Shown one piece after another: positions 4,710 to 16,262 of a stretch of DNA of 37,721 bases. Both the position numbers and the translations under genes were made by a program. Position 1 is the first letter of the stretch. Each line of letters opens with the position of its first letter. This DNA is from Spirochaetaceae bacterium. Lineage in GTDB: Bacteria; Spirochaetota; Spirochaetia; Treponematales; Rectinemataceae. Location: the NCBI GenBank assembly GCA_026418115.1, contig JAOABY010000017.1, forward strand, positions 1-37,721. Reading direction: 5' to 3'. The notes beneath the pieces are model-generated. The model was not told where the DNA came from and made no database searches. It saw only the letters and a list, made by a program, of their open reading frames with translations.

Positions 4710-5624
4710 TTAGACAGGAAGTCCAAGCTCCTTCATCTTGATCATTATCATATCAACCGCAGTGAAGATCTTCTTTTCTTCTTCACAAGACACAGGATCC
4801 AGTGGAAATATGACACGCTTATCGGTCAATCCAAGTCTGCTGAGTGCACACTTGTTTGCAGAAATCTGGTTTTTCGACATCATCAGAATTGCAGATGTCT
4901 CAGCGATCAGCTCATTAAGTTCCATTGTTCTAGAAATATTTCCAGACTTGCCTGCTTCATATAATGCTATGAATAGGCTCGGGAATAGAGGCGAAATGGA
5001 TGGGATGAATCCATCTGCCCCCATGAGCATGGAAGCAGCAGCAAGGGGGGTAGATCCTTGAAGAAGACAGAAATTTTTTCCTTTGAAATACATCAGGCAT
5101 TTGATGAAATCAGGGAAATTGCCGCTGGAATCTTTATATCCAACAACATGATCCATTTTTGAGAGATATTCTATGGTCTCGAATGAAAGGCTCAATCCAG
5201 TAAAGGCTGGGATGCTATAGATCAAAATATCAATATTCGATTCTCGAGCTATTTTTTCAAAGTGCCTCTTGGTTTCATCCTGATTCACGTGTCTGGCATA
5301 GAAAATCGGAGTTACTACGGCACAAGATCCTCCCATTTGTTCCAGCCTCTTGATATTGTCAATCACGCGTCTTGTACTGGTATCCATGACTCCAGCCATG
5401 ACTGGAATCGCTCCACCAACCTCATCTAGAGCAATCCGGATTGCGTTCTCCCTTTGCTGTTGCGTAAGAGCCATTGTTTCGCCATTGGTGCCAGCGACGA
5501 ATATTCCGTGAAGGCCTTTATCGATACAATGACGCAACAGGTTGCGAAAGCCTCGTTCATCAACATTCTCGTTTTCATCAATTGGAGTAATGATTGGAGG
5601 TATCACGCCATAATATTTCTTCAT
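4710..5624 (-). CDS. DapA/NanA-family Schiff-base aldolase, HOGA1-like
   Basis: A 304-residue TIM-barrel lyase of the dihydrodipicolinate synthase superfamily. The Schiff-base lysine is K164 in GYKDSSGN. Other active-site positions are T46 in GTNGE (45-49), Y109 and Y136 in IYSIPAFTG. DapA itself normally has GTTGE and YNxP. The GTNGE plus YSIP...TG pattern is closer to 4-hydroxy-2-oxoglutarate aldolase (human HOGA1 type), which cleaves a 4-hydroxy-2-oxo acid to pyruvate and an aldehyde. This is the last gene of the catabolic block, 46 bases after the flavoprotein, with a GGGAGAG ribosome-binding site. Lysine biosynthesis is unlikely from the context. The true substrate is unknown. Confidence 0.85.
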   Translation of the reverse strand: MKKYYGVIPPIITPIDENENVDERGFRNLLRHCIDKGLHGIFVAGTNGETMALTQQQRENAIRIALDEVGGAIPVMAGVMDTSTRRVIDNIKRLEQMGGSCAVVTPIFYARHVNQDETKRHFEKIARESNIDILIYSIPAFTGLSLSFETIEYLSKMDHVVGYKDSSGNFPDFIKCLMYFKGKNFCLLQGSTPLAAASMLMGADGFIPSISPLFPSLFIALYEAGKSGNISRTMELNELIAETSAILMMSKNQISANKCALSRLGLTDKRVIFPLDPVSCEEEKKIFTAVDMIMIKMKELGLPV

Positions 5625-5670
5625 GTATCTCTCCCTGGTTCATATACTGAGGTTTGGTATTCATGTTTGA

Positions 5671-7239
5671 TCATATTGCTTGTTTTTCAAAAGCTATTTC
5701 TCCATGACTGTCTCGATACAATACTATGCTTCTCTCATATTCTTTGCTCATCTCAGGATAGTCTGTTCTCAGATGTGTACCACGGCTTTCTTTTCTTGCC
5801 AGCGCGGCAGTCAGCATGAGGGAAACGGACAGATATCGCTGTTCAGTGAATGTATCACGTTTCAGATCATCACTATTCGCCTTTGCTTTTTCGAGCAGAA
5901 GAAGAGCATTTAGCAAATCTTTTTCATTTCTATAGATCCCCAAAGCTTTTGAGGCACGGTCAATATAGGCTGCATATTTCATCCTCACATGAAGATCTTC
6001 TCCATACGCAACTGTTGAAGAATATTCTTGAAGCGGTTCAATGCCATCCTTGGCAATTGCTTCTGCGCACATCATCCCAGAGAGCACAGCCTGGCTTGCC
6101 GCATTACCAGCCATTCTGCATGCACCATGAAAACCTGCTGCTGCTTCTCCAACAGCGTATAGACCAGACAGAGAAGATCTGCAACCATTATCTACTTTTA
6201 TGCCGCCGGAGAAGCTGTGGGGTACAGGCCCGACCTCAATCAATTGCTCATTCGGATCGATACCATTTGATTCCAGTCTTTTGTAAAACCAGGGATAGGC
6301 CTTCAGGATTTTTCTATCTATATGTCGAAGGTCAACATAAGCACCACCATGTTCGGATCCTCTGCCAGCATCTATTTCTTTCCATATTGCTTTGTTAATG
6401 AGTGTTTTTGGAGCACCTGCCTCACCTTGAGGCCGATACTGAAGCAAGAATCGTTCATTGTTTGCATTCAGAAGGTATGCACCTTCTCCCAGCATTGCTG
6501 TTGGACATGGTTCACCAAAAGCTTCTTCAGGATGAAGCACCACCATCGGCTCATACTCAAGAAACTCAAGATCGGTCAGTTTTACTCCTGCGTTGAATGC
6601 AATTCCAAGGGTTCGACCATTAACATCTGCCGGATAGGTTGACTTGCCCAGTAGAGTCCCTACACCACCCCACCCCGCAATGACCGTAGAAGCATATTTT
6701 GTGCTGATTTGGCCATTGCCATCACGTACAACAACTCCGGCAATATGATCATTTATGGTGATAAGATTCACTACCTCGCTAGAAAGATTGAATTCCACTC
6801 CTTTCCCGATAAGCGAAGTTCTCAGTGTTCGTTCGATATGGGCGCCAATAAGCTCGGTAGTACTGCATAAAGAGCGAGGACAGGATGATCCGCTTGCATG
6901 CCTTCTTAGCAGATCACCACCTGCAGTACGCGCAAACCGGACACCCCATCGGCAAAGAAGTTCATATCCTTCTACAGTCTTGCTGATCATTTCCTTAACC
7001 AGGTCCCGATCATTTAGCCAATATCCAGCTTCAAGCATATCCCTGTAGTACTGTTCTGGCGTGTCTCCATAAGGATTATCAGGCAGGACAAAATTGATTG
7101 CGGCTATATATGGTGTTCCTCCGAAGGCAGGTGCAAAAACACCGATTTTCTTGATTCCAAGTTCGACCAAACGCGCTGCCGTTGAAAGTGCAGCCAGTCC
7201 GCTTCCCGCTAGTATCACATCATATCGGGACTCGCTCAT
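5671..7239 (-). CDS. FAD-dependent oxidoreductase of the FrdA/SdhA/NadB superfamily with altered active site
   Basis: A soluble flavoprotein of 522 residues. GSGLAA at 12-17 is the dinucleotide-binding loop. HSFSGGI (341-347) and HGACRMAG (371-378, R375) match the substrate His and Arg of fumarate reductase. The C-terminal SRGTHLRTDYPE matches SRGAHxRxDxPE of NadB/SdhA. Two conserved residues are changed: the QFHPT position reads EYEPM (His to Glu230, Thr to Met232), and the Arg of RGEGGYL reads Leu250. It should therefore not be called aspartate oxidase or fumarate reductase without data; oxidation of a different hydroxy or saturated acid is likely. No signal peptide or heme motif is seen. 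The ribosome-binding site is GAGAGGGG. Confidence 0.82.
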   Translation of the reverse strand: MSESRYDVILAGSGLAALSTAARLVELGIKKIGVFAPAFGGTPYIAAINFVLPDNPYGDTPEQYYRDMLEAGYWLNDRDLVKEMISKTVEGYELLCRWGVRFARTAGGDLLRRHASGSSCPRSLCSTTELIGAHIERTLRTSLIGKGVEFNLSSEVVNLITINDHIAGVVVRDGNGQISTKYASTVIAGWGGVGTLLGKSTYPADVNGRTLGIAFNAGVKLTDLEFLEYEPMVVLHPEEAFGEPCPTAMLGEGAYLLNANNERFLLQYRPQGEAGAPKTLINKAIWKEIDAGRGSEHGGAYVDLRHIDRKILKAYPWFYKRLESNGIDPNEQLIEVGPVPHSFSGGIKVDNGCRSSLSGLYAVGEAAAGFHGACRMAGNAASQAVLSGMMCAEAIAKDGIEPLQEYSSTVAYGEDLHVRMKYAAYIDRASKALGIYRNEKDLLNALLLLEKAKANSDDLKRDTFTEQRYLSVSLMLTAALARKESRGTHLRTDYPEMSKEYERSIVLYRDSHGEIAFEKQAI

Positions 7240-7262
7240 CTGATACCCCTCTCATTCAATAT

Positions 7263-7310
7263 ATTGCGACAGGATATGAAAATGGCCATCATTCTCATCC
7301 CTGTCGCAAT
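7263..7310. repeat. Inverted repeat upstream of the flavoprotein gene
   Basis: Eleven-base perfect arms, ATTGCGACAGG (7263-7273) and CCTGTCGCAAT (7300-7310), enclose 26 bases that contain the small palindrome ATGGCCAT. The repeat is 23 bases before the flavoprotein start codon on the minus strand, in a 210-base intercistronic gap. It could be an operator, a leader hairpin or an mRNA processing site. Confidence 0.55.
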
Positions 7311-7413
7311 TGCATTGTTCAAAAAGCCATCGCAGATGGATAAGCCTGTCTGACTAATTCAAAATTCTATTCATGCTAAAACCGTCTGTAATACTAAAAC
7401 CTCCAATAGCTAT

Positions 7414-7434
7414 TTCTGATCACAGGAATCAGAA
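7414..7434. repeat. Small hairpin after the TRAP permease stop
   Basis: Seven-base arms TTCTGAT (7414-7420) and ATCAGAA (7428-7434) around a seven-base loop, starting 16 bases beyond the TRAP permease stop on the minus strand. No T-run follows, so it is more likely a 3' stabiliser or processing site than a full terminator. Confidence 0.4.
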
Positions 7435-7449
7435 CTGTGGTTCCGAAGC

Positions 7450-9357
7450 TCAGATTGCTACTTTCACTCTTTTCTCATGTCTATTCTTCACATATGAAAG
7501 AATGAAAACTAAAATGCCCAAGCATATTCCCACAATATCCGTGATTGTCTCCGGCACGATCAGCATTACAGAAGCCACAAAAAGCAGTATACGCCAGAAC
7601 ATCCCTATCGTCCCATTCATGTATCCGGCCATTGCAGATGCCAGGAAATACACACCAATCAGGACAACAACACTTCCTCTGAGAATCTGCAGAGGGGATC
7701 CAAGCATGAGGATGCTAGGATCATAGATGAATACGAAAGGTATAAGAAAAGCTACTAGAGCGTACCTGAAAGCGGTCCAACCAGTTTTCATTGCATCTGC
7801 ACCAGCAATTCCTGCGGCAGTAAATGAAGCCAGGCAGACTGGTGGAGTAATTTGTGCCATGACTCCGAAATAGAATACGAACATGTTCGCCTGCAGAGGT
7901 GGAATATTCAACCCTGTGAGAGTCGGAACGAAAAGGACGACTGCAACGAGGTATGCTGCAACAGTTGGTAGTGCCATTCCGAGGACAATACACCCAAGCA
8001 TTGCTATGATAAGCGCAAAGAACAGATTGGAAATCCCGATACTCGCAATAAGCCCGCTTATTTTTGTTGCCAGGCCACTTTGTATGACTATTCCGATAAT
8101 TATGCCGCATGCAGCCGTTGGAATAGCAATTTCAGCAGCTTGCTTGCTCCCCTGAACAAGACCGTTCAGCAAGTCGCGGGGAGATACGAAATTCTTCCTC
8201 TCGGGGAGGAAATAGCTGACGATATTCAGAATCAGGACTGCATAAATGCCATACATTGCGCTTCTCATCAGCGAGGCACCGGCGATCATGAAGTAGACAA
8301 GAATAAATGCCGGAAGGAGCAGATAGAGGCGAGGAAGAATTGGCTTGACTTCTATGCTCACTGTATTGCTCGTCTTATCGAGATCCCGCTTTTTTGCCAA
8401 TAAAGTGACCAGAAAAAATACGGACATGTAATATGCAAGCGCGGGGATGATGGCGGATTTTGCAATATGCATGTATGGTACACCGAGCATTTCAGCCATA
8501 ATGAATGCACCGATGCCCATGATTGGTGGCATTATCTGGCCGCCAGTAGACGCTACAGATTCAACAGCTCCGGCTTCATGGGGTAGATATCCAACTTTTT
8601 TCATCATGGGAATTGTCATTACGCCAGTCGTCGATACATTTGCAACTGCACTTCCGGAGATCATGCCCATCAGGCCAGAAGATATCACTGCAGCCTTTGC
8701 AGGACCCCCAGAGCTCTTGTTTGAAAATTTCATTCCGATGTCAATGAGCACCTGGCCTCCTCCACATAATGAAAAGAAGGCGCCGAACATTATGAAATAA
8801 TAGAGAACGGATGAAGATGTATAGAGCGGTGTTCCATAGATTCCATCGACACCCATGATCATCAGCTCGGTAAATTTCTTAAGGTTAGTTCCTTTGAATC
8901 TGAAAATGCCAGGGAAGATATTGCCAAACCACATATAGAAAATAAAAAAGGAAATAAAAATGAACAGAGACCATCCAAGAACACGACGAACCGATTCCAT
9001 CAGGATAATCACGACAACGATCATCGCGACCATATCAAGCTGCGTTACTGGACTGATATAGGGAACCCGCTGCTGAAGACGATTTGTCTGCGAGAGCGTA
9101 TACCAGATTAGAAATGCAATTCCCGCATAGATTATAACATCAAAGATCTGAATCCACTTCTTTTCGGGTCTTTTTTCATTTGCTGGATGCATTAAAAAAA
9201 CGATAATAAGGCCGAAAATAATATGAAGAGGACTCTGGAGCATGGGATGCAGGGGGGAAATAAGAGCCAGGTACAACTGGTATGCCGCCCACAATGCACT
9301 CATGATGATAATTGCGGCCTTTCCAATGTTTTTCCTGGAGCCAATACTGTCGCTCAC
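7450..9357 (-). CDS. TRAP transporter fused permease (4TM/12TM, TAXI-associated)
   Basis: The membrane component of a tripartite secondary transporter, 635 residues, with the small DctQ-like and large DctM-like subunits in one chain. The first third has about four to five hydrophobic segments, ending near VRRVLGWSLFIFISFFIFYMW. The remainder is the M domain, with the glycine-rich SGLMGMISGSAVANVSTTGVMTIPMMKK segment and a repeated ALPTVAAYLV / AQITPPVCLASF pattern typical of these permeases. Translation starts at GTG (9355-9357) with GGAG about nine bases upstream; no better ATG is present. It follows its binding-protein gene after a strong hairpin. TAXI systems usually move organic acids using the sodium gradient. 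Confidence 0.92.
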   Translation of the reverse strand: MSDSIGSRKNIGKAAIIIMSALWAAYQLYLALISPLHPMLQSPLHIIFGLIIVFLMHPANEKRPEKKWIQIFDVIIYAGIAFLIWYTLSQTNRLQQRVPYISPVTQLDMVAMIVVVIILMESVRRVLGWSLFIFISFFIFYMWFGNIFPGIFRFKGTNLKKFTELMIMGVDGIYGTPLYTSSSVLYYFIMFGAFFSLCGGGQVLIDIGMKFSNKSSGGPAKAAVISSGLMGMISGSAVANVSTTGVMTIPMMKKVGYLPHEAGAVESVASTGGQIMPPIMGIGAFIMAEMLGVPYMHIAKSAIIPALAYYMSVFFLVTLLAKKRDLDKTSNTVSIEVKPILPRLYLLLPAFILVYFMIAGASLMRSAMYGIYAVLILNIVSYFLPERKNFVSPRDLLNGLVQGSKQAAEIAIPTAACGIIIGIVIQSGLATKISGLIASIGISNLFFALIIAMLGCIVLGMALPTVAAYLVAVVLFVPTLTGLNIPPLQANMFVFYFGVMAQITPPVCLASFTAAGIAGADAMKTGWTAFRYALVAFLIPFVFIYDPSILMLGSPLQILRGSVVVLIGVYFLASAMAGYMNGTIGMFWRILLFVASVMLIVPETITDIVGICLGILVFILSYVKNRHEKRVKVAI

Positions 9358-9382
9358 GGTTTCTTCTCCTTGATATGGTGAG

Positions 9383-9430
9383 AAAAATGAGAGAGCATGA
9401 CTCCCTGTTGAAGAGGGACCATGCTCTCTC
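9383..9430 (-). terminator. Intra-operon hairpin with T-run between binding protein and permease
   Basis: On the minus strand, GAGAGAGCATG (complement of 9420-9430) pairs with CATGCTCTCTC (complement of 9389-9399). An inner CCCT/AGGG pair extends the stem, and five Ts follow (complement of 9383-9387). The structure starts five bases past the stop of the TAXI gene. In TRAP and ABC operons such elements usually let the binding protein be made in excess over the permease, either as a leaky terminator or as a 3' shield against exonucleases. Confidence 0.75.
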
Positions 9431-9435
9431 CTGAT

Positions 9436-10443
9436 TCATTTCATATAGCCCTGTTCTCTATAATATCTGGCAGCTCCAGGATGCAGTGGTGCTCCAGCCT
9501 TCAATGGTTCCCAGGCTGTCTTCGGATCAAAGACCTTGAGTGCAGCACTTGCATTCACCAGTGCTGCTGTATTCTCACACAGTGCTTTGGTCATTGCATA
9601 AACGATATCATCACCGAGCTTCCCGGAAACGAGAATGGTCTGTGGCGAACCAACACTCTGAATCTCGTTGGTCTGTCCTTTCCATGTATTTGCAGCGATA
9701 GTGACATTATCGAAACCTTGATCATTCAGTTTTTTCCTCGTCTCCGCTGAAAGCTGGGGAAAGAACATTGCAGTTGTCATGCACAGCTCGGTTGTTGCAC
9801 TCTGTCCTGCAGCCAGATGGTCAATTGTGATATCAGCCTTGTTATCCTTAAGCAGGCTGACAATTGCATCGGATCCGGTCTGAGTTACTGATCCACCCCA
9901 GCTCTTAATATCAGCAAATGTCACACCCAGGACCTCGAAAACCTTTTCACAGGCAAGTGCTCCAAATGAACCAGCTGTTTTGATTGCAACTCGAACGGGA
10001 TATTTTTTTGCTACAATTTCCTCAACAGTTTTGATACCAGTTCTTTTTACGAAATCCTGAGTGAAAAGAATATTGATGAAATCCTTTGACAATCCACCAG
10101 CCAAAGCCTTGACATTCTTGGCAGGCGGATTACCCAGTATTCCTGTTTTCACTGCCCACAAGGCAGGTGCGGAATTTCCCAGTGTAATTTCAGCATCTCC
10201 ATTTTCAATCAGAACAGGGGCACCAAATCCGCCAGGAGAAGTAGTTGTAATATCGATAGTCGACCCTGCGGGAAGGCCTTTCATGAAAATATTGGCGAGT
10301 GCTGATGCATAAACATACATGCTGGTCCCGACGCTCTGGGTCGCGAATGTAAGCCTAACTGGCTTGTCCGCCGCGAATGCCGATGTCAACAGCATCATGA
10401 ACAGCATCGCTACCAGAGCAATGCTTCTGATTGCTTTTTTCAT
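9436..10443 (-). CDS. TAXI-family TRAP solute-binding protein
   Basis: A periplasmic receptor of 335 residues. The N-terminus is a classical signal peptide (basic MKKAIR, hydrophobic core, cleavage after TSAFA near residue 24). The mature part begins with VRLTFATQSVGTSMYVYASALA, the usual start of TAXI proteins, followed by the TTTSPGGFGAPVLIENGDAEI region that lines the ligand pocket. There is no lipobox cysteine, so it is probably soluble. The ribosome-binding site AGGAGG is perfect. The gene directly precedes the fused permease, forming a complete transporter. The TAXI fold does not allow the ligand to be predicted; a hydroxylated or dicarboxylic acid fits the neighbouring enzymes. Confidence 0.93.
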   Translation of the reverse strand: MKKAIRSIALVAMLFMMLLTSAFAADKPVRLTFATQSVGTSMYVYASALANIFMKGLPAGSTIDITTTSPGGFGAPVLIENGDAEITLGNSAPALWAVKTGILGNPPAKNVKALAGGLSKDFINILFTQDFVKRTGIKTVEEIVAKKYPVRVAIKTAGSFGALACEKVFEVLGVTFADIKSWGGSVTQTGSDAIVSLLKDNKADITIDHLAAGQSATTELCMTTAMFFPQLSAETRKKLNDQGFDNVTIAANTWKGQTNEIQSVGSPQTILVSGKLGDDIVYAMTKALCENTAALVNASAALKVFDPKTAWEPLKAGAPLHPGAARYYREQGYMK

Positions 10444-10478
10444 ACGATCCTCCTAAATCCGACAGATGATTTATGTAA

Positions 10479-10494
10479 TGCTGAATTCTCAGCA
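10479..10494. repeat. Short hairpin between the pdxA-like and TAXI genes
   Basis: TGCTGA (10479-10484) and TCAGCA (10489-10494) pair around a four-base loop in the 69-base gap. There is no T-run, so it is not a convincing terminator. It could mark mRNA processing that separates enzyme and transporter messages. Confidence 0.35.
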
Positions 10495-10512
10495 AATACA
10501 TCCCATAATTGG

Positions 10513-11601
10513 TCAAATTCCCTTGCGGCTCATGATATGCTTTCGCGAAAACCCTGCAGCATATCGGATTGCCTCAACCATGCTCTCCTCGCTTGCCATT
10601 CCCTTCCATGCCTGATCAAATGCGGTTCCGTGATCTACCGAAGTGCGGATTATTGGAAGACCCAGGGTAATATTGACACCTCGCACTGATTTCCAGGTAT
10701 GGCTGGAATTATCCCAGATGAAGCCGATCATTTTGACAGGTATATGGCCCTGGTCATGGTACATGGCCACAACAATGTCATAATAGCCACCTGCAGCCTT
10801 TACGAAGAGCGTGTCCGGTGAAATCGGTCCATCAACATCCATTCCATATTTTCTAGCTTCGGCAATCGCAGGTGCGATTTCATTCCGCTCTTCAAGGCCA
10901 AAAAGACCTCCATCACTTGCATGCGGGTTGAGACCTGCCACACCAATGCGGGGACGATCTATACCGAAATCCTGCATTGCTGCATTCGCCAGCTTGATAA
11001 CAGATAGCACACGTTCCTTCTTTATGAGATCGCATGCCTCTCTGAGAGGAACATGGGTAGTTACATGGACAACCCGCAATTTTCCATCAGCAAGCATCAT
11101 TGCGTAATCTCTGGTTTTTGTGTAATGAGCATAAATTTCTGTATGGCCTGAAAAAGCATAGCCGGCTAGATTCAATGCTTCCTTATTGATTGGGCTTGTA
11201 ACTGTTGCATCTACTTGTCCAGCCATTGCCAGTTCGATGGTTTTCTGAATGGCTTCAAATGCGGCATGTCCCGCAGCACCTGAAACCTTTCCGAATTCGA
11301 ACGAGGCCAATTCAACAGAATGCTGATCCAGAACATCTATAGTACCGAATCTGAATTCTGCTTCATTTGGTTCTCTGATTGTATGAATATGCAAGGGCTT
11401 TCCGATCAGATGGATCGCGCGCTCCATAATCGAGGCATCGCCAACTACCAGCGGATTTGATATCTGATATATCTCCTTCAAAGACAATGATTTTGCAGTA
11501 ATTTCAGGACCTACGCCTGCTGGATCTCCCATAGTGATGGCAATGACTGGAAGCCTTTCTGTCATCTCATTTTCACTATGAGTTTCCTTGTTATTTCCCA
11601 T
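10513..11601 (-). CDS. PdxA2-like 4-phospho-hydroxyacid dehydrogenase
   Basis: A 362-residue member of the 4-hydroxythreonine-4-phosphate dehydrogenase family, a metal- and NAD-dependent oxidative decarboxylase. Motifs: GDPAGVGPE near the N-terminus, SGHTEI, GLNPHA, YHDQGHIPVK and RTSVDHGTAFD, including the three metal-binding histidines. Beside a DUF1537 kinase the family is known as PdxA2, which converts 4-phospho-D-threonate to DHAP and CO2; that role is more likely here than pyridoxine synthesis. The start at 11601 abuts the ADH stop and has GAGAGG upstream. A second ATG at 11565, nearer the family N-terminus, is possible but has a weaker site. Confidence 0.87.
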   Translation of the reverse strand: MGNNKETHSENEMTERLPVIAITMGDPAGVGPEITAKSLSLKEIYQISNPLVVGDASIMERAIHLIGKPLHIHTIREPNEAEFRFGTIDVLDQHSVELASFEFGKVSGAAGHAAFEAIQKTIELAMAGQVDATVTSPINKEALNLAGYAFSGHTEIYAHYTKTRDYAMMLADGKLRVVHVTTHVPLREACDLIKKERVLSVIKLANAAMQDFGIDRPRIGVAGLNPHASDGGLFGLEERNEIAPAIAEARKYGMDVDGPISPDTLFVKAAGGYYDIVVAMYHDQGHIPVKMIGFIWDNSSHTWKSVRGVNITLGLPIIRTSVDHGTAFDQAWKGMASEESMVEAIRYAAGFSRKHIMSRKGI

Positions 11602-12756
11602 TTATAGAACCTCTCTGTATATAGCCTTGATGGCATCCTTGCTGAGATCAACAGGATTGTTGTCCAGTAAACGCCTGACCCCATATGCAGCATCTGCAAG
11701 GGTATCAAGCGCAGATGTGCTGATACCGAATGGCTTGAGAGTTGCCGGTATTCCCATTTCCTTTACCAATGACCTCAGACTCTCGATGAGTTCATTCGCC
11801 CTTGCCCTGACATCGCCTTTTATACCGCTTCCGATTGCATCTGCAACCATTGCCAATCTGGAAGCAATGAACTCTTTCTGATATTTCATCACAGGAACCA
11901 GCAGAATGGCATTCGCAATACCATGTGGAATTCTGTAGATTCCTCCTAATGGATAGGAGAGGGCATGAATGGCATTTGTTCCAGAGGCGGTGATGCATAC
12001 TCCTCCATAATATGCACCAAGCATGGCTTTCGACCGTGCCTCCAGATTTGAGCCTTCATGATAGGCAACTTGTAATGAAGTCATCATGAGTCGCAACCCT
12101 TCCAGAGCATACATGTCACTGAAGGCATTTGCTTTTTTACCAATGTAGCATTCGAGCAGATGACATATGGCGTCGATGCCTGTTGAAGCGGTGAGAGAAG
12201 CTGGAAGTCCCAAGGTCAGTTCCGGATCCAGAATTACAAACTGTGGAATTAAATAACGGCTCACAATCCCGATCTTGAGATTTCTGGAAGGAAAGAGCAC
12301 AATAGCATTGGGAGTAGCTTCAGCACCTGTACCTGCTGTAGTCGGAATCATTACACATGGAATTCCCCTTCCTGGAACTCCACGATCCGCAAGTTCCATG
12401 GTAGAACACTGATGTATTGCCAGAGTTGATAGAACTTTCGTCGCATCAATAACCGAACCGCCTCCAACAGCAATCATTGCTGAAGGGTTTGTCTCTCGTA
12501 CCTTCCCGGCGAGCAAATCCAGATCATTGTCTGTCGGTTCTGCCGGAATTGAATCAAGAATCTCCAGGTCAAATCCTTCTTCATGAATGCCTTCGACTAT
12601 CCTCTCGAGCATTCCTGAAGCAAGGATATTTTGATCTGTGATTAGCAGTATGGTTGCTCGTGGTTTACAAAATGAAGATATGATCTTGCCGGCTTTGGAA
12701 GAGGTTCCAGCACCGAATTGTACAAATGGCACAGAGAATGCTTCAAAAGATCTCAT
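11602..12756 (-). CDS. Iron-type (group III) alcohol dehydrogenase
   Basis: A cytoplasmic NAD(P)-dependent dehydrogenase of 384 residues. GGGSVIDATK is the nucleotide-binding motif. The metal site is visible as D and H in TGIDAICHLLE, and two further histidines in HALSYPLGGIYRIPHGIAN. The intact set suggests an active enzyme. The family acts on aldehydes, primary alcohols or hydroxyacids, so the substrate is open. The ORF overlaps the end of the kinase gene by 14 bases (12743-12756) and is followed without a gap by the pdxA-like gene. It is thus wedged between two enzymes that normally act in sequence, which suggests it works on the same pathway. The ribosome-binding site is AGGGAG. Confidence 0.9.
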   Translation of the reverse strand: MRSFEAFSVPFVQFGAGTSSKAGKIISSFCKPRATILLITDQNILASGMLERIVEGIHEEGFDLEILDSIPAEPTDNDLDLLAGKVRETNPSAMIAVGGGSVIDATKVLSTLAIHQCSTMELADRGVPGRGIPCVMIPTTAGTGAEATPNAIVLFPSRNLKIGIVSRYLIPQFVILDPELTLGLPASLTASTGIDAICHLLECYIGKKANAFSDMYALEGLRLMMTSLQVAYHEGSNLEARSKAMLGAYYGGVCITASGTNAIHALSYPLGGIYRIPHGIANAILLVPVMKYQKEFIASRLAMVADAIGSGIKGDVRARANELIESLRSLVKEMGIPATLKPFGISTSALDTLADAAYGVRRLLDNNPVDLSKDAIKAIYREVL

Positions 12757-14035
12757 TCTTACTTCTCCCTAAAGTCTTCATCAGAGGAGAGACAATGCGA
12801 AGGCATTCCACCATTGCATCTTCATCACCAAATCCTCCTGACTTCGACACATAATAGATTTTTCGCCCTAAAGCATTCGATTTAAAATATCCGTAAGGAA
12901 TACCAGGAATTATTTCATCCACAAATCTGATACAATCAGTATCCAGAGTCTCGATGATACGAGCGGCCGTATCTCCGCCTGATGCGATAATCAGTTTAAT
13001 TGAGCACTCCTGAGCAATCACTCTGGCAAGACTCCCCATGAATTGGGATATCTGTAATCCAACATTCTTATCGATTGCGCTGCCATTTCTACCACGCAAG
13101 ATATGATCTGTCCTTAATAACAGAGGGCAATTCCGTTGCAGAGAATTCAAATGCTCCATAATACGGGTTATCTCATCTGATGGGTCATTCAATGCTCGAG
13201 ATGTATCAACAACCAACTCTTCTACAGTCTCAACCTCCAGTAATCTGTTGCATTGTCTGATGGTTTTTTCTGTCAACGATCCAATAACGAACAGAACTGC
13301 TTTTCTGGGAAAGTCATGCCGTACTGCAGTAGAGCATTTTTTCCCATCTGCTATCGCTTCAGCCAATCCTGATGAGCCTGCAAACAGTATCCCAGGCATT
13401 GTCTGCATGTTGGATATGATTTTCAGATCCTCCATAGTCTCTGCGTCGGCTATAAAAACACGTATCCCTCTTGCCAGCCCATCCTCTATTTTACTTCTCA
13501 GCAGTGATGAACCAGACCGAATATCGGACAGAAAAAGCTCTTCTACAGCTCCGGGAAATCGAATTTGCAGGAATTCCGATATTCGACCGATATTGACTGG
13601 ATTAAAGGGGTCACGGCCAATCGATGTATCCGTTAATGGAACTCCATCTATCAGGCATACTCCATTGATAACCGTTCTTCTGTTCCTGGGTGCAGCAGGT
13701 GCTACAATCACGAATCGAAATCCCCCTGCATCCATCACAGCAGCTATCTCTTCTGCTATATTTCCCCGAAGAGTTGAATCAATTTTTTTGAAAAATGCAC
13801 GATAGCCCAATTCGTAAAGCATCCGGGTTGCTGATGCTACCTTTCTATATGCATCTTTCCCGTCCAGAAAACGCGTATCCGTGTTAATTACTACAGTCTC
13901 ATGCTTTTGAAAGGTTATTCCATCTGAATATCTATCTATCAGAAGAAAAACTGGTTTCCCGCAGGACACAAACTGCACTGCTGAATCGCCAGCTCCCGTA
14001 AAATCATCTGCAATTATTGCCCATTTCCTGCTCAT
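12743..14035 (-). CDS. DUF1537 four-carbon acid-sugar kinase
   Basis: An ATP-dependent kinase of 430 residues for the terminal hydroxyl of acids such as threonate or erythronate. The N-terminal substrate domain starts with WAIIADDFTGAGDSA and has FFKKIDSTLRGN near residue 100. The C-terminal nucleotide domain has LIIASGGDTAARI and ends with the conserved KSGGFGDEDAM. Length is normal for the family. A longer reading from 14062 is open, but that ATG lies inside the predicted -24 promoter element, and the family N-terminus fits the ATG at 14035. No clear ribosome-binding site precedes it, and the predicted leader is only about six bases, so translation may be near-leaderless. First gene of the catabolic operon. 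Confidence 0.9.
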   Translation of the reverse strand: MSRKWAIIADDFTGAGDSAVQFVSCGKPVFLLIDRYSDGITFQKHETVVINTDTRFLDGKDAYRKVASATRMLYELGYRAFFKKIDSTLRGNIAEEIAAVMDAGGFRFVIVAPAAPRNRRTVINGVCLIDGVPLTDTSIGRDPFNPVNIGRISEFLQIRFPGAVEELFLSDIRSGSSLLRSKIEDGLARGIRVFIADAETMEDLKIISNMQTMPGILFAGSSGLAEAIADGKKCSTAVRHDFPRKAVLFVIGSLTEKTIRQCNRLLEVETVEELVVDTSRALNDPSDEITRIMEHLNSLQRNCPLLLRTDHILRGRNGSAIDKNVGLQISQFMGSLARVIAQECSIKLIIASGGDTAARIIETLDTDCIRFVDEIIPGIPYGYFKSNALGRKIYYVSKSGGFGDEDAMVECLRIVSPLMKTLGRSKNEIF

Positions 14036-14051
14036 AGCCAAGAACACATAT

Positions 14052-14067
14052 GCAAATGGCATGCCAA
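14052..14067 (-). promoter_or_regulatory. Sigma-54 (-24/-12) promoter of the catabolic operon
   Basis: The minus strand reads TGGCATGCCATTTGCA. The invariant GG and GC are separated by exactly ten bases, and the flanks match the TGGCAC...TTGCA consensus at nearly every position. It lies immediately before the kinase gene and downstream of a gene for a sigma-54 activator. Transcription would start near 14041. Confidence 0.78.
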
Positions 14068-14206
14068 TTTAGAAATCAGAAAAAGCTATTTCTCTTGAGG
14101 TAAACTTTTACAATATCTTCAAATCTTTTCTAATAAAAACCAATGTTTGCTCATTCGCAAAAGTATTCAATTGGTAGCTTTATTGTTGTATGAAGATAAC
14201 CACAAG

Positions 14207-14229
14207 CGGAAATGGTGAAAAAATTTCCG
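14207..14229. promoter_or_regulatory. Dyad, candidate upstream activator site
   Basis: CGGAAAT (14207-14213) and ATTTCCG (14223-14229) are inverted around nine bases. TGGTGAAA also occurs twice in direct orientation, at 14213-14220 and 14233-14240, twenty bases apart or about two helical turns. The dyad centre is about 175 bases upstream of the predicted sigma-54 start point, a normal distance for an enhancer-binding protein. The bases between dyad and promoter are very AT-rich: 14101-14160 holds 15 G+C of 60. Two weaker dyads are nearby: TTTGC-N6-GCAAA at 14146-14161 and GTTCTG/CAGAAC at 14229-14253. Confidence 0.5.
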
Positions 14230-14264
14230 TTCTGGTGAAATTATAATCAGAACTCAGCACATTT

Positions 14265-16136
14265 TTATTTTTTAAGCCGTTTCCTGATAGTAACTCTGTC
14301 AAGATCGAGGCGTTTTGCAGTACGGGAAATGTTTTCGCCCTCCTGAATATATACGTGATGAATGATTCTATCCTCAATTTCCCTGAGAGTCCCAATCAGG
14401 AAATCACCACCTGGTTCAGATTTGTTAGGGTTGTTCTTGCTGCTTTCGATCGATGAAATAACAATGGATGCAGCACGCTCACCGAATAGGTAATAGAGGG
14501 TAAAATAGCGTTCAGCCAAATTTTCCAATTCCCGAACATTCCCAGGCCATTCGTAATCAGAAAGAACCCTCAGCAAGGAATCGGGTACATTTACTTTTAA
14601 TGGCGAATGCTTGCGAGCAGCCATTTTTGTGAGAAAGAGCATGAACAGATGTTCAACATCACCTTTCCTGGCACGCAGTGGCGGAATGTTGATCTCCAGT
14701 ACATTTAATCTGTAATACAAGTCTTTTCTAATTCTTCCTCTTTTCACCTCCTCCTGCAGGGGAATGTTCGATGCTGTAATTACCCGAACTGAAACTGGAA
14801 TGATTTTGGTATCCCCGATACGCATGATTTCCCGTTCCTGTAAAACTCGCAGGAGTTTCGACTGTAGCTGGAAATCAAGCTCATTGATTTCATCCAGAAA
14901 AATGGTGCCATTATGAGCGAGCTCAAAAAGACCGGCTTTCCCGCCACGCATGGCACCGGTAAATGCCCCTTCAGCATATCCGAATAACTCGCTTTCAAGC
15001 AGGCTGGCAGGAAGTGCACCACAGTTTATAGCTACAAAAGGTCCATCCCTCACAGCGCTTGCATTATGAATGCTCTGAGCCAGAAGCTCCTTACCAGTCC
15101 CCGTTTCTCCATAGATCACTATATTGCTATCGGTCTGAGCATATTGCCGAGCAATATCTATACAAAATTGCATTGAGGGAGATGAAGTATAGATATCAGA
15201 GAATGTGTGCTTGGCTGTGAGACCCTTTGCATACAGTTGTTTTCTCACTTTATTTTCAAGAGCCTGAATTCTGCCAACATCCTGCAGGACGATGACAGCA
15301 CCTTCCACTTTGCTGTTGGCAACGAATGGAGTCAGATTGACAGCGAATCGCCTCCCATTTATTTCTTCCAATTTGCCTGTGACTTCAGAACCTTTTTCCA
15401 TGATACGAATCAGTTCTTTATCATTGATGACTGACTGAATGGATGTCCCATTTAGAATTGACATACCCAATAGTTCTGAGGCCTTGGAATTTACTTGATT
15501 TACAACACCATTTTTATCAACAGCCAGGATGGCTTCCTGTACAGAATTGAGGATTGCTCTTATTCTTATGTCACTTTCACGCTGTAAGCGGATTTTTTTT
15601 GCTATGAGAACAGCTTTGCTGAGTGCCTCATACACTGCATATTCATCTGATTCTATAAGATGCAGTTCAGTATTGATTCCTCTGGCAGCATTTATAGTAA
15701 TCATATCTCCAATCAATACGTCGATTCTCTGATTCGCTATCAGTTGGATTCTGGATTCGACTTCCGTCTCGGTATCAACCGGCAGACATGTGATCGGGAT
15801 ATCCAGTATTGTGCACATCTTTTCTACCTGTTCGGTCAAAGACCTGAAACCGATTACTGCTGCCTTCTTCTTGGCATGTATTAACGGTTGAAGCACCCGG
15901 AGAAGTTCATATTGTGATATTCCAATCTCAATTACTTCAACTCCAAATGTTTCGCGTATTAGCTTTGCAGTACCTCCCCTGCTGACGATAATTGACCCAT
16001 CAATCATTGCAGCTCTTGCAGGCTCAAGAGCTTCCTGCAGATTTGCAACTATAGTGTTTATCGGAATGTCAAAACGATCGATCAAGGAGTCCGCGATTAT
16101 TTTCATCTCTTTATACGGTGCTATCAGGATCACCAT
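14265..16136 (-). CDS. Sigma-54-dependent activator with PrpR_N-type sensor and PAS domain
   Basis: A 623-residue enhancer-binding protein. Residues about 1-175 resemble the PrpR_N effector domain (SRGGTAKLI, VIEIGISQYELLR). About 190-290 form a PAS domain (ILNSVQEAILAVDKNGVVNQVN). About 320-555 form the AAA+ module with Walker A GETGTGKE (near 343), the sigma-54 contact loop GAFTGA (near 389) and Walker B GTIFLDEI. The C-terminus is a Fis-type HTH (NISRTAKRLDLDRVTIRKRLKK). No receiver domain is present, so it probably binds a metabolite. The ATG at 16136 has AGGAG eleven bases upstream. A GTG at 16178 would add 14 residues but has no ribosome-binding site. It is transcribed toward the kinase operon, which it most likely activates. 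Confidence 0.92.
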   Translation of the reverse strand: MVILIAPYKEMKIIADSLIDRFDIPINTIVANLQEALEPARAAMIDGSIIVSRGGTAKLIRETFGVEVIEIGISQYELLRVLQPLIHAKKKAAVIGFRSLTEQVEKMCTILDIPITCLPVDTETEVESRIQLIANQRIDVLIGDMITINAARGINTELHLIESDEYAVYEALSKAVLIAKKIRLQRESDIRIRAILNSVQEAILAVDKNGVVNQVNSKASELLGMSILNGTSIQSVINDKELIRIMEKGSEVTGKLEEINGRRFAVNLTPFVANSKVEGAVIVLQDVGRIQALENKVRKQLYAKGLTAKHTFSDIYTSSPSMQFCIDIARQYAQTDSNIVIYGETGTGKELLAQSIHNASAVRDGPFVAINCGALPASLLESELFGYAEGAFTGAMRGGKAGLFELAHNGTIFLDEINELDFQLQSKLLRVLQEREIMRIGDTKIIPVSVRVITASNIPLQEEVKRGRIRKDLYYRLNVLEINIPPLRARKGDVEHLFMLFLTKMAARKHSPLKVNVPDSLLRVLSDYEWPGNVRELENLAERYFTLYYLFGERAASIVISSIESSKNNPNKSEPGGDFLIGTLREIEDRIIHHVYIQEGENISRTAKRLDLDRVTIRKRLKK

Positions 16137-16262
16137 TTTTGATTCAGCTCCTCTCACTGACTTCCTAATACTAATCACAAATAGGCATTAATAACTTGCA
16201 TCAGAATTCTGTATGCTGGTGCATGTTGTTTTTCATGGAAAATGGTACCGCACTGAGTTGAT

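Follow-up and report, generated by a model that had tools for sequence, protein, structure and literature searches.

A flavoprotein family of the fumarate reductase and L-aspartate oxidase fold with a Glu/Lys active site and a recurring gene module

Flavoproteins of the FrdA/SdhA/NadB fold that carry glutamate and lysine in place of a histidine and an arginine of the classical active site (E230 and K278 in the protein studied here) are a real enzyme family whose active site has been rewritten in a defined way and whose genes recur in one module, and they were found described nowhere in the literature searched. Among the papers listed by searches of openly licensed literature (CC0, CC BY, CC BY-SA), none described an E230/K278 flavoprotein. 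The member studied here is encoded in the window, a stretch of 37,721 nucleotides from a Spirochaetaceae bacterium. The curated models closest to these proteins are those of NadB and FrdA/SdhA, so the proteins are likely to receive those names and the module to be overlooked. The exchange of a His/Arg for a Glu/Lys pair allows members to be recognised cleanly by sequence, and it offers an entry to the question of how a site for dicarboxylate redox chemistry turns into one for sugar acids.

Results

Five classical active-site positions are altered and two retained

The window protein was aligned with NadB, FrdA and SdhA of E. coli (NC_000913) and 46 other family or superfamily rows, giving 50 rows after removal of L034 and L039. 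In this alignment, E230 corresponds to NadB H244 and to FrdA H233 counting Met as 1 (H232 in the literature), L250 to NadB R263 and FrdA R249 by the same count (R248 in the literature), H341 to NadB H351 and R375 to NadB R386. An earlier note on this DNA had read exactly these two replacements and two retentions from the sequence, and the E. coli references confirmed all four. Three more changes in the same site had gone unnoticed: K278 stands in the column of NadB R290, FrdA R288 counting Met as 1 (R287 in the literature) and SdhA R286, while P246 and T247 replace NadB T259 and E260, respectively. Five classical positions are thus altered (H to E230, T to P246, E to T247, R to L250 and R to K278) and two are retained (H341 and R375). 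The column of NadB E121 holds Ala in the window protein and Ala, Leu, Val or Thr across the family.

One assignment of the earlier note was wrong, namely that the arginine of the RGEGG motif is the proton donor of fumarate reductases. The L250 column is that of the relay arginine (Fcc3 R381 type), because the RGEGG arginine lies three residues past the relay glutamate, just as R381 lies past E378 in Fcc3. The donor arginine is also altered, but at another column, that of K278, which is an invariant lysine in the family. For FrdA, a passage in PMC10238741 names Arg287 as the proton donor, His232, His355 and Arg390 as substrate-binding residues and Thr244 as assisting; for Fcc3, a passage in PMC6242907 has H365, R402, H504 and R544 binding and reducing the substrate and E378, R381 and R402 forming the proposed proton relay. 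The refuting condition of the earlier note, another His and Arg occupying the same sites, was examined by alignment, in which the family has Glu, Leu or Pro, and Lys at those columns. Judged from these columns, the half of the site that serves the dicarboxylate and the proton relay is replaced, and the half that clamps one carboxylate (H341 and R375) is retained.

The fold is that of FrdA and NadB, the names are not

The AlphaFold2 model of the flavoprotein (pLDDT 88.6, pTM 0.90) aligned by VIA-align over nearly the whole chain with FrdA (1kf6; Z 44.6, rmsd 2.9, 510 aligned) and NadB (1knp; Z 41.9, rmsd 2.5, 496 aligned). The model is confident and predicts the fold of these two relatives. Among the matches listed by Foldseek and VIA-align were FrdA, SdhA, NadB, APS/PAPS reductase and flavocytochrome c types, and the closest PDB relatives were NadB and FrdA. 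Membership of the FrdA/SdhA/NadB superfamily (FAD_binding_2) was supported by PF00890 (145.4 bits), PF02910 (Succ_DH_flav_C, 32.4 bits) and the shared fold.

The top NCBIfam models were also of the NadB and FrdA/SdhA types, all below their cut-offs: 251.2 bits against a curated cut-off of 452.75 for the NadB model TIGR00551, 210.3 against 567.3 for TIGR01812 and 143.4 against 727.35 for TIGR01816, the latter two being FrdA/SdhA models. With NadB (E. coli b2574; PDB 1knp, 1chu) the window protein shares the fold, the equivalents of H351 and R386, and the lack of a partner subunit beside it. It differs in replacing H244, E121, T259, E260, R263 and R290; the NadB active-site set H244, E121, T259, R290, H351 and R386 reads E, A, P, K, H and R. 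The gene also lies away from nadA and nadC, and a search for NadA (PF02445) had no match in the 95.9% complete genome of the window, with 12 of 14 control genomes positive. With FrdA/SdhA the protein shares the fold and one carboxylate clamp (H355 and R390), whereas H232, T244, E245, R248 and R287 are replaced, so that the set H232, T244, E245, R248, R287, H355 and R390 reads E, P, T, L, K, H and R. It differs further in that the SHT segment, whose His carries the covalent FAD, is absent from the alignment, and in that no FeS or membrane subunit was found among the eight operon genes and one neighbour scanned. Nor did the window operon contain a recognisable redox partner gene.

The flavoprotein is not NadB and not FrdA/SdhA, and the earlier expectation that automatic naming as either would mislead is supported. 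A NadB role was rejected on residues, cut-off and the undetected NadA. The reading that the protein is a diverged NadB or FrdA/SdhA still catalysing its parent reaction would fit the top NCBIfam models and PDB relatives, but it is highly improbable and already largely refuted by the residues. Five of them are changed in the active site, scores reach 251 of 453 bits for NadB and 210 of 567 for FrdA/SdhA, NadA was not found in the genome, no FeS subunit adjoins the gene, and another family carrier (G424) has a NadB of its own between NadA and NadC.

As a separate observation, the undetected NadA suggests NAD-precursor salvage in the genome of the window.

The Glu/Lys proteins form one clade

A pattern scan of genome contigs yielded 16 loci, of which 15 were family members (L004-L018, 35-58% identity) and one (L019, 23% identity) was not used. 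One locus (L045, read in L077) was added from a class search that found three family members in 26 genomes, and six were added from Fusobacteriota, where 7 of 98 genomes were positive, the seventh being that of L011. Including the window, there were 23 distinct loci; L013 and L020 are identical in sequence and were counted once. E230, T247, K278, H341 and R375 were present in all 23 loci and P246 and L250 in 22, the exception being L018 with Ala and Pro. The six Fusobacteriota loci were held out from the definition of the signature, and all six had the same residues and the same enzymes. In the 50-row alignment, the Glu and Lys occurred together in 18 of 18 family rows (L020 duplicating L013) and in 1 of 32 other rows, and 27 of these 32 had the His and Arg. 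After removal of L033, L037, L042 and L016, a 46-row tree placed the 17 family rows on one side of a branch with support of 100/100, indicating that the motif marks one clade, a point for which the earlier note had called for a phylogeny. The window protein grouped with L013 and L014 (Treponema/Spirochaetaceae; support 100/98).

The family is under selection. The ratio dN/dS was 0.06-0.11 in three of five pairs of other family loci, the window protein being in no pair; dS was 1.3-3.1 in these three, which makes the ratio rough, and was not computable for the other two. The idea that the window gene is a decayed copy was rejected, since its frame has no internal stops, the new residues are invariant and dN/dS is low in those three pairs. 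The earlier view of a functional enzyme with an altered site is supported by the same evidence.

The family is rare. Of 58 close relatives, only the genome that holds the window had it; it occurred in 2 of 392 genomes in the phylum and in 1 of 397 genomes of the family to which the L004 genome belongs, a second match there being the distant L044. In the phylum of the L008 genome, matches occurred in 34 of 149 genomes, with residues checked in the loci given here, and taking at least 50% identity as membership left 1 of 149. A search with the L018 flavoprotein in its order returned its own genome only (1 of 244). Carriers, which include gut Lachnospiraceae and Treponema, belong to Bacillota, Spirochaetota, Calditrichota and Fusobacteriota and are mostly of anaerobic lineages, as far as the titles of their records show; Thermovorax subterraneus and Clostridium citroniae are culturable examples. 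A plasmid search returned 43 records at E 1e-30, all below 60% identity; among the best 10 of the 43, the annotated ones were called L-aspartate oxidase or FAD-dependent oxidoreductase.

The gene is a near-constant member of one module

Over the 23 loci, the flavoprotein gene was accompanied by an aldolase in 21, a TRAP permease in 20, PdxA2 in 19, a TAXI-type solute-binding protein in 19, a DUF1537 kinase in 18, an iron-type alcohol dehydrogenase (Fe-ADH) in 18 and YhcH in 10. YhcH was therefore absent from 13, the window operon included, as far as the available sequence of each locus reaches. The earlier claim that the motif is nearly always found with TRAP-TAXI genes agrees with these counts (TRAP 20 and TAXI 19 of 23). 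Among the 17 loci other than the held-out ones, the counts were 15 (aldolase), 14 (TRAP), 13 (PdxA2), 13 (TAXI), 12 (kinase), 12 (Fe-ADH) and 7 (YhcH), with a short-chain dehydrogenase (SDR) in four and a BNR_2 domain in two. A sigma-54 activator-like gene was present in 13 of the 17; in five of these the match scored no more than about 100 bits (L004, L006, where it is a fragment, L007, L010 and L018). In the six held-out Fusobacteriota loci, kinase, Fe-ADH, PdxA2, aldolase, TAXI and TRAP were each found six times, YhcH three times and the sigma-54 gene in none; a GntR-FCD regulator came first in all three Fusobacteriota loci scanned for it.

Four loci (L011, L012, L016 and L017) run into the ends of their contigs. 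Two absences are genuine within the available sequence: the 16.7-kb locus L015 (Treponema) had a sigma-54 activator beside the flavoprotein and no other module gene that we found, and the 12.8-kb contig L006 lacked kinase and PdxA2. In L018 a citrate-type transporter stands where other loci have TRAP, together with esterase-like genes, a separate BNR_2 gene and two YhcH genes. From the counts and these exceptions, the recurring part consists of importer, flavoprotein, aldolase, Fe-ADH, kinase and PdxA2. The E230/K278 gene is a near-constant member of this one conserved module. The same active-site rebuild across four phyla, nearly always in the same gene set, looks like an undescribed route for an unusual sugar acid.

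In L015, the flavoprotein and a BNR_2 sialidase-like domain share one 940-aa frame (5046-7868). In L018, two more DHDPS-like paralogues lie directly before the flavoprotein (8140-9989), one of which was scanned and gave a weak PF00701 match, and the esterase-like genes, three in number, follow it.

The window operon and its control

The window operon is a minus-strand set in which the flavoprotein gene is penultimate and the aldolase gene last (Table 1).

Table 1. Features of the window operon and codons of the flavoprotein active site
Feature	Position	Strand	Evidence
DapA/NanA-type class I aldolase	4710..5624	-	profile search, alignment
FAD flavoprotein of FrdA/SdhA/NadB fold, E230/K278 family, 522 aa	5671..7239	-	Pfam/NCBIfam, alignment, AlphaFold2 model, VIA-align
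R375 codon, retained carboxylate-binding Arg (NadB R386)	6115..6117	-	alignment
H341 codon, retained carboxylate-binding His (NadB H351)	6217..6219	-	alignment
K278 codon, column of proton-donor Arg (NadB R290, FrdA R287)	6406..6408	-	alignment, passage in PMC10238741
L250 codon, column of RGEGG relay Arg (NadB R263, FrdA R248)	6490..6492	-	alignment
P246-T247 codons, columns of NadB T259-E260 (FrdA T244 and relay E245)	6499..6504	-	alignment
E230 codon, column of substrate-binding His (NadB H244, FrdA H232)	6550..6552	-	alignment
Fused TRAP permease	7450..9357	-	profile search
TAXI-type TRAP solute-binding protein	9436..10443	-	profile search
PdxA2-type dehydrogenase	10513..11601	-	profile search, His columns
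Iron-type alcohol dehydrogenase (Fe-ADH)	11602..12756	-	profile search
DUF1537 four-carbon acid-sugar kinase; true start probably 14035	12743..14062	-	profile search
-24/-12 (sigma-54) promoter-like site, 11/12 consensus bases	14051..14066	-	motif scan
Sigma-54 activator with PrpR_N domain, likely regulator	14265..16178	-	profile search

The GC content of the operon (4710-16178) is 43-46%, compared to 55-65% in the genes on either side. The low GC content together with the patchy distribution suggests that the operon was acquired from elsewhere and is a likely island. Sigma-54-like sites scoring at least 10 were found just upstream of the kinase gene in the window and in L005, L009, L013 and L014, the latter being four of nine other loci scanned; the whole window holds four sites with such scores. 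The site in Table 1 overlaps the called kinase start and would leave a leader of only about 5 bases, which makes it weak evidence for a promoter.

Partner enzymes

D-threonate kinase was the top NCBIfam model for all three kinases scanned, with 227.3 bits for the window kinase and 189.3 and 218.8 for those of two other loci, below the NF047819 cut-off of 450; no scanned kinase or Fe-ADH reached the cut-off of any model. Across loci the kinases are 21-56% identical, with one pair at 81%. The PdxA2 protein scored 362.7 bits against the TIGR00557 cut-off of 290.35 and retains the three His of E. coli PdxA (166/211/266), and it scored 349.5 against 583 for the D-threonate-4-phosphate model NF002891. 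A bacterial D-threonate pathway with a DUF1537 kinase and PdxA2 was reportedly described by Zhang et al. in 2016; in it, a PdxA-type enzyme converts the 4-phospho acid to DHAP and CO2. The module shares the kinase and PdxA families with that pathway and has D-threonate kinase as its best kinase model, but its kinases reach about half of the cut-off and it adds aldolase, Fe-ADH, flavoprotein and sometimes YhcH. The route to DHAP described in PMC12540250 starts from L-threonate and is not the PdxA2 one.

The Schiff-base Lys161 and the Tyr133 of DapA are retained at their columns in all 20 aligned aldolases, and Arg138 in 19 of them, the window copy having Phe; Asn replaces DapA Thr45 in 19 of 20. 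In DapA, Arg138 binds the carboxylate of the aldehyde partner. Tested as a true DHDPS (TIGR00674 cut-off 206.15; T44, T45, R138 and K161), the window aldolase reached 157.9 bits with N45 and F138, while those of two other loci pass the cut-off (224.0 and 231.8 bits) yet have N45. The window aldolase is 25-32% identical to those of the 13 other loci aligned, which are 48-94% identical among themselves; it is probably not orthologous to them and, with its Phe at R138, looks as if replaced by another member of the DHDPS family. With the sialic-acid operon (nanA, YhcH/NanQ) the module shares a DapA/NanA-type aldolase, YhcH in 10 of 23 loci and BNR_2 in two; it differs in its downstream enzymes, which are of the kinds that handle a four-carbon acid. 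According to a passage in PMC8141875, YhcH opens cyclic ulosonic acids for the aldolase but does not assist with 2-keto-3-deoxyxylonate, a small acid that is about 30% in the open form.

Discussion

Tentatively, and with a little less than even confidence, we favour the flavoprotein as a soluble FAD dehydrogenase of sugar acids that has a Glu/Lys pair and feeds an ulosonic-acid route to D-threonate and DHAP. The site keeps a single carboxylate clamp, has lost both the second carboxylate site and the path of protons to an enoate, and carries a lysine at the position of the acid/base arginine; it is these residues, with the gene company, that point to dehydrogenation (C-OH to C=O) of an imported polyhydroxy acid. 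H341 and R375 would hold one carboxylate and E230 a hydroxyl in place of the second, K278 would serve as acid/base at the FrdA donor-Arg position, and hydride would pass to flavin N5. The predicted product is a cyclising 2-keto-3-deoxy (ulosonic) acid, which YhcH, where present, may open. The DapA-like aldolase would then cleave a C7 2-keto-3-deoxy-heptarate to pyruvate and a four-carbon aldehyde acid, Fe-ADH would reduce the latter to D-threonate, and the DUF1537 kinase and PdxA2 would convert D-threonate to DHAP and CO2. The aldolase substrate would have to be a C7 diacid, because a four-carbon acid must remain after pyruvate release; the aldehyde needs reduction, which fits the Fe-ADH.

FrdA and 3-ketosteroid dehydrogenases make or remove a C=C bond, and an alpha,beta-desaturase or enoate reductase acting in this way next to a carboxylate or keto acid, with the DapA-like enzyme as a hydratase-aldolase, would agree with the same fold, the retained H341 and R375, and the Asn for Thr45 in 19 of 20 aldolases; hydratase-aldolases may show a similar change. 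We regard it as improbable, because neither of the two arginines nor the glutamate that carry protons in enoate reduction is left, and because a cyclic ulosonic acid is suggested by YhcH in the loci that have it.

Harder to set aside, though still rather unlikely, is a redox-neutral flavoenzyme, in which FAD takes a hydride from the sugar acid and returns it in the same turnover, with epimerisation, dehydration or the opening of an anhydro or unsaturated form as the outcome. Such turnover needs no electron acceptor, in keeping with a window operon that has no recognised partner subunit and with carriers from mostly anaerobic lineages, and by our reasoning substrates of the Dha type need no net oxidation. 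The relatives FrdA, SdhA and NadB catalyse net redox chemistry, however, and the acceptor could be fumarate or a carrier encoded elsewhere.

For the favoured dehydrogenase route, Dha (3-deoxy-D-lyxo-2-heptulosarate) deserves attention as a candidate. Writing out its centres shows that the fragment C4-C7, once reduced at C4, has the configuration of D-threonate and not of erythronate. Among known sugars, Dha, a component of rhamnogalacturonan II, would therefore be a specific match that yields precisely D-threonate, as judged from stereochemistry and gene content. Gut bacteria are described in published work as digesting rhamnogalacturonan II, and the Dha reading, if true, would supply a missing fate of this plant cell-wall sugar; among the openly licensed papers (CC0, CC BY, CC BY-SA) listed by our searches, none was on Dha catabolism. 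Dha leaves the flavoprotein without an obvious job, because it is already a 2-keto-3-deoxy acid and needs no oxidation. The substrate of the flavoprotein might be a more reduced relative, a precursor or another form of Dha, the step might be redox-neutral, or the true substrate might be another acid. Weak points of the favoured reading are that YhcH is found in only 10 of 23 loci, that the window aldolase is divergent and lacks R138, that the kinases are 21-56% identical apart from one pair and, like the Fe-ADHs scanned, stay below every model cut-off, that L015 and L006 lack pathway genes, and that the window operon has no recognised redox partner gene. The boldest version, in which a new FAD family turned a fumarate reductase site into a Glu/Lys sugar-acid dehydrogenase, forms with its module the first bacterial route for a C7 ulosaric (Dha-like) acid and spread horizontally among gut and subsurface anaerobes, we consider unlikely.

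A distant flavoprotein with the Glu/Lys pair, L044 (L076 9192-10799), is only 31% identical in sequence, sits on a very long branch and has an unsure place in the tree; a search in its order returned its own genome only (1 of 344). Its neighbours include two GH43 genes and genes for an MBL-fold hydrolase, an IlvD/EDD dehydratase, a KDPG-type aldolase, a PfkB kinase, a CoA-ligase-like protein and AllG, and no dehydrogenase was found among the nine neighbours scanned, an arrangement that also speaks for the favoured sugar-acid dehydrogenase. The same context, with GH43, a possible lactonase in the MBL-fold hydrolase, dehydratase, aldolase and kinase, counts in favour of a sugar (hemiacetal) or uronate 1-dehydrogenase yielding a lactone or aldarate. 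We regard such an activity as improbable, to the same degree as the desaturase: no lactonase or IlvD-type dehydratase is among the window operon genes, nor did the additional genes scanned at other loci of the family include a recognisable one, and L044 has low identity (31%) and an unsure place.

Another divergent flavoprotein, in L079 (5997-7658), retains the substrate His and donor Arg and has Phe for the relay Arg; its cluster contains aldehyde ferredoxin oxidoreductase, MutL and AtuA-family genes.
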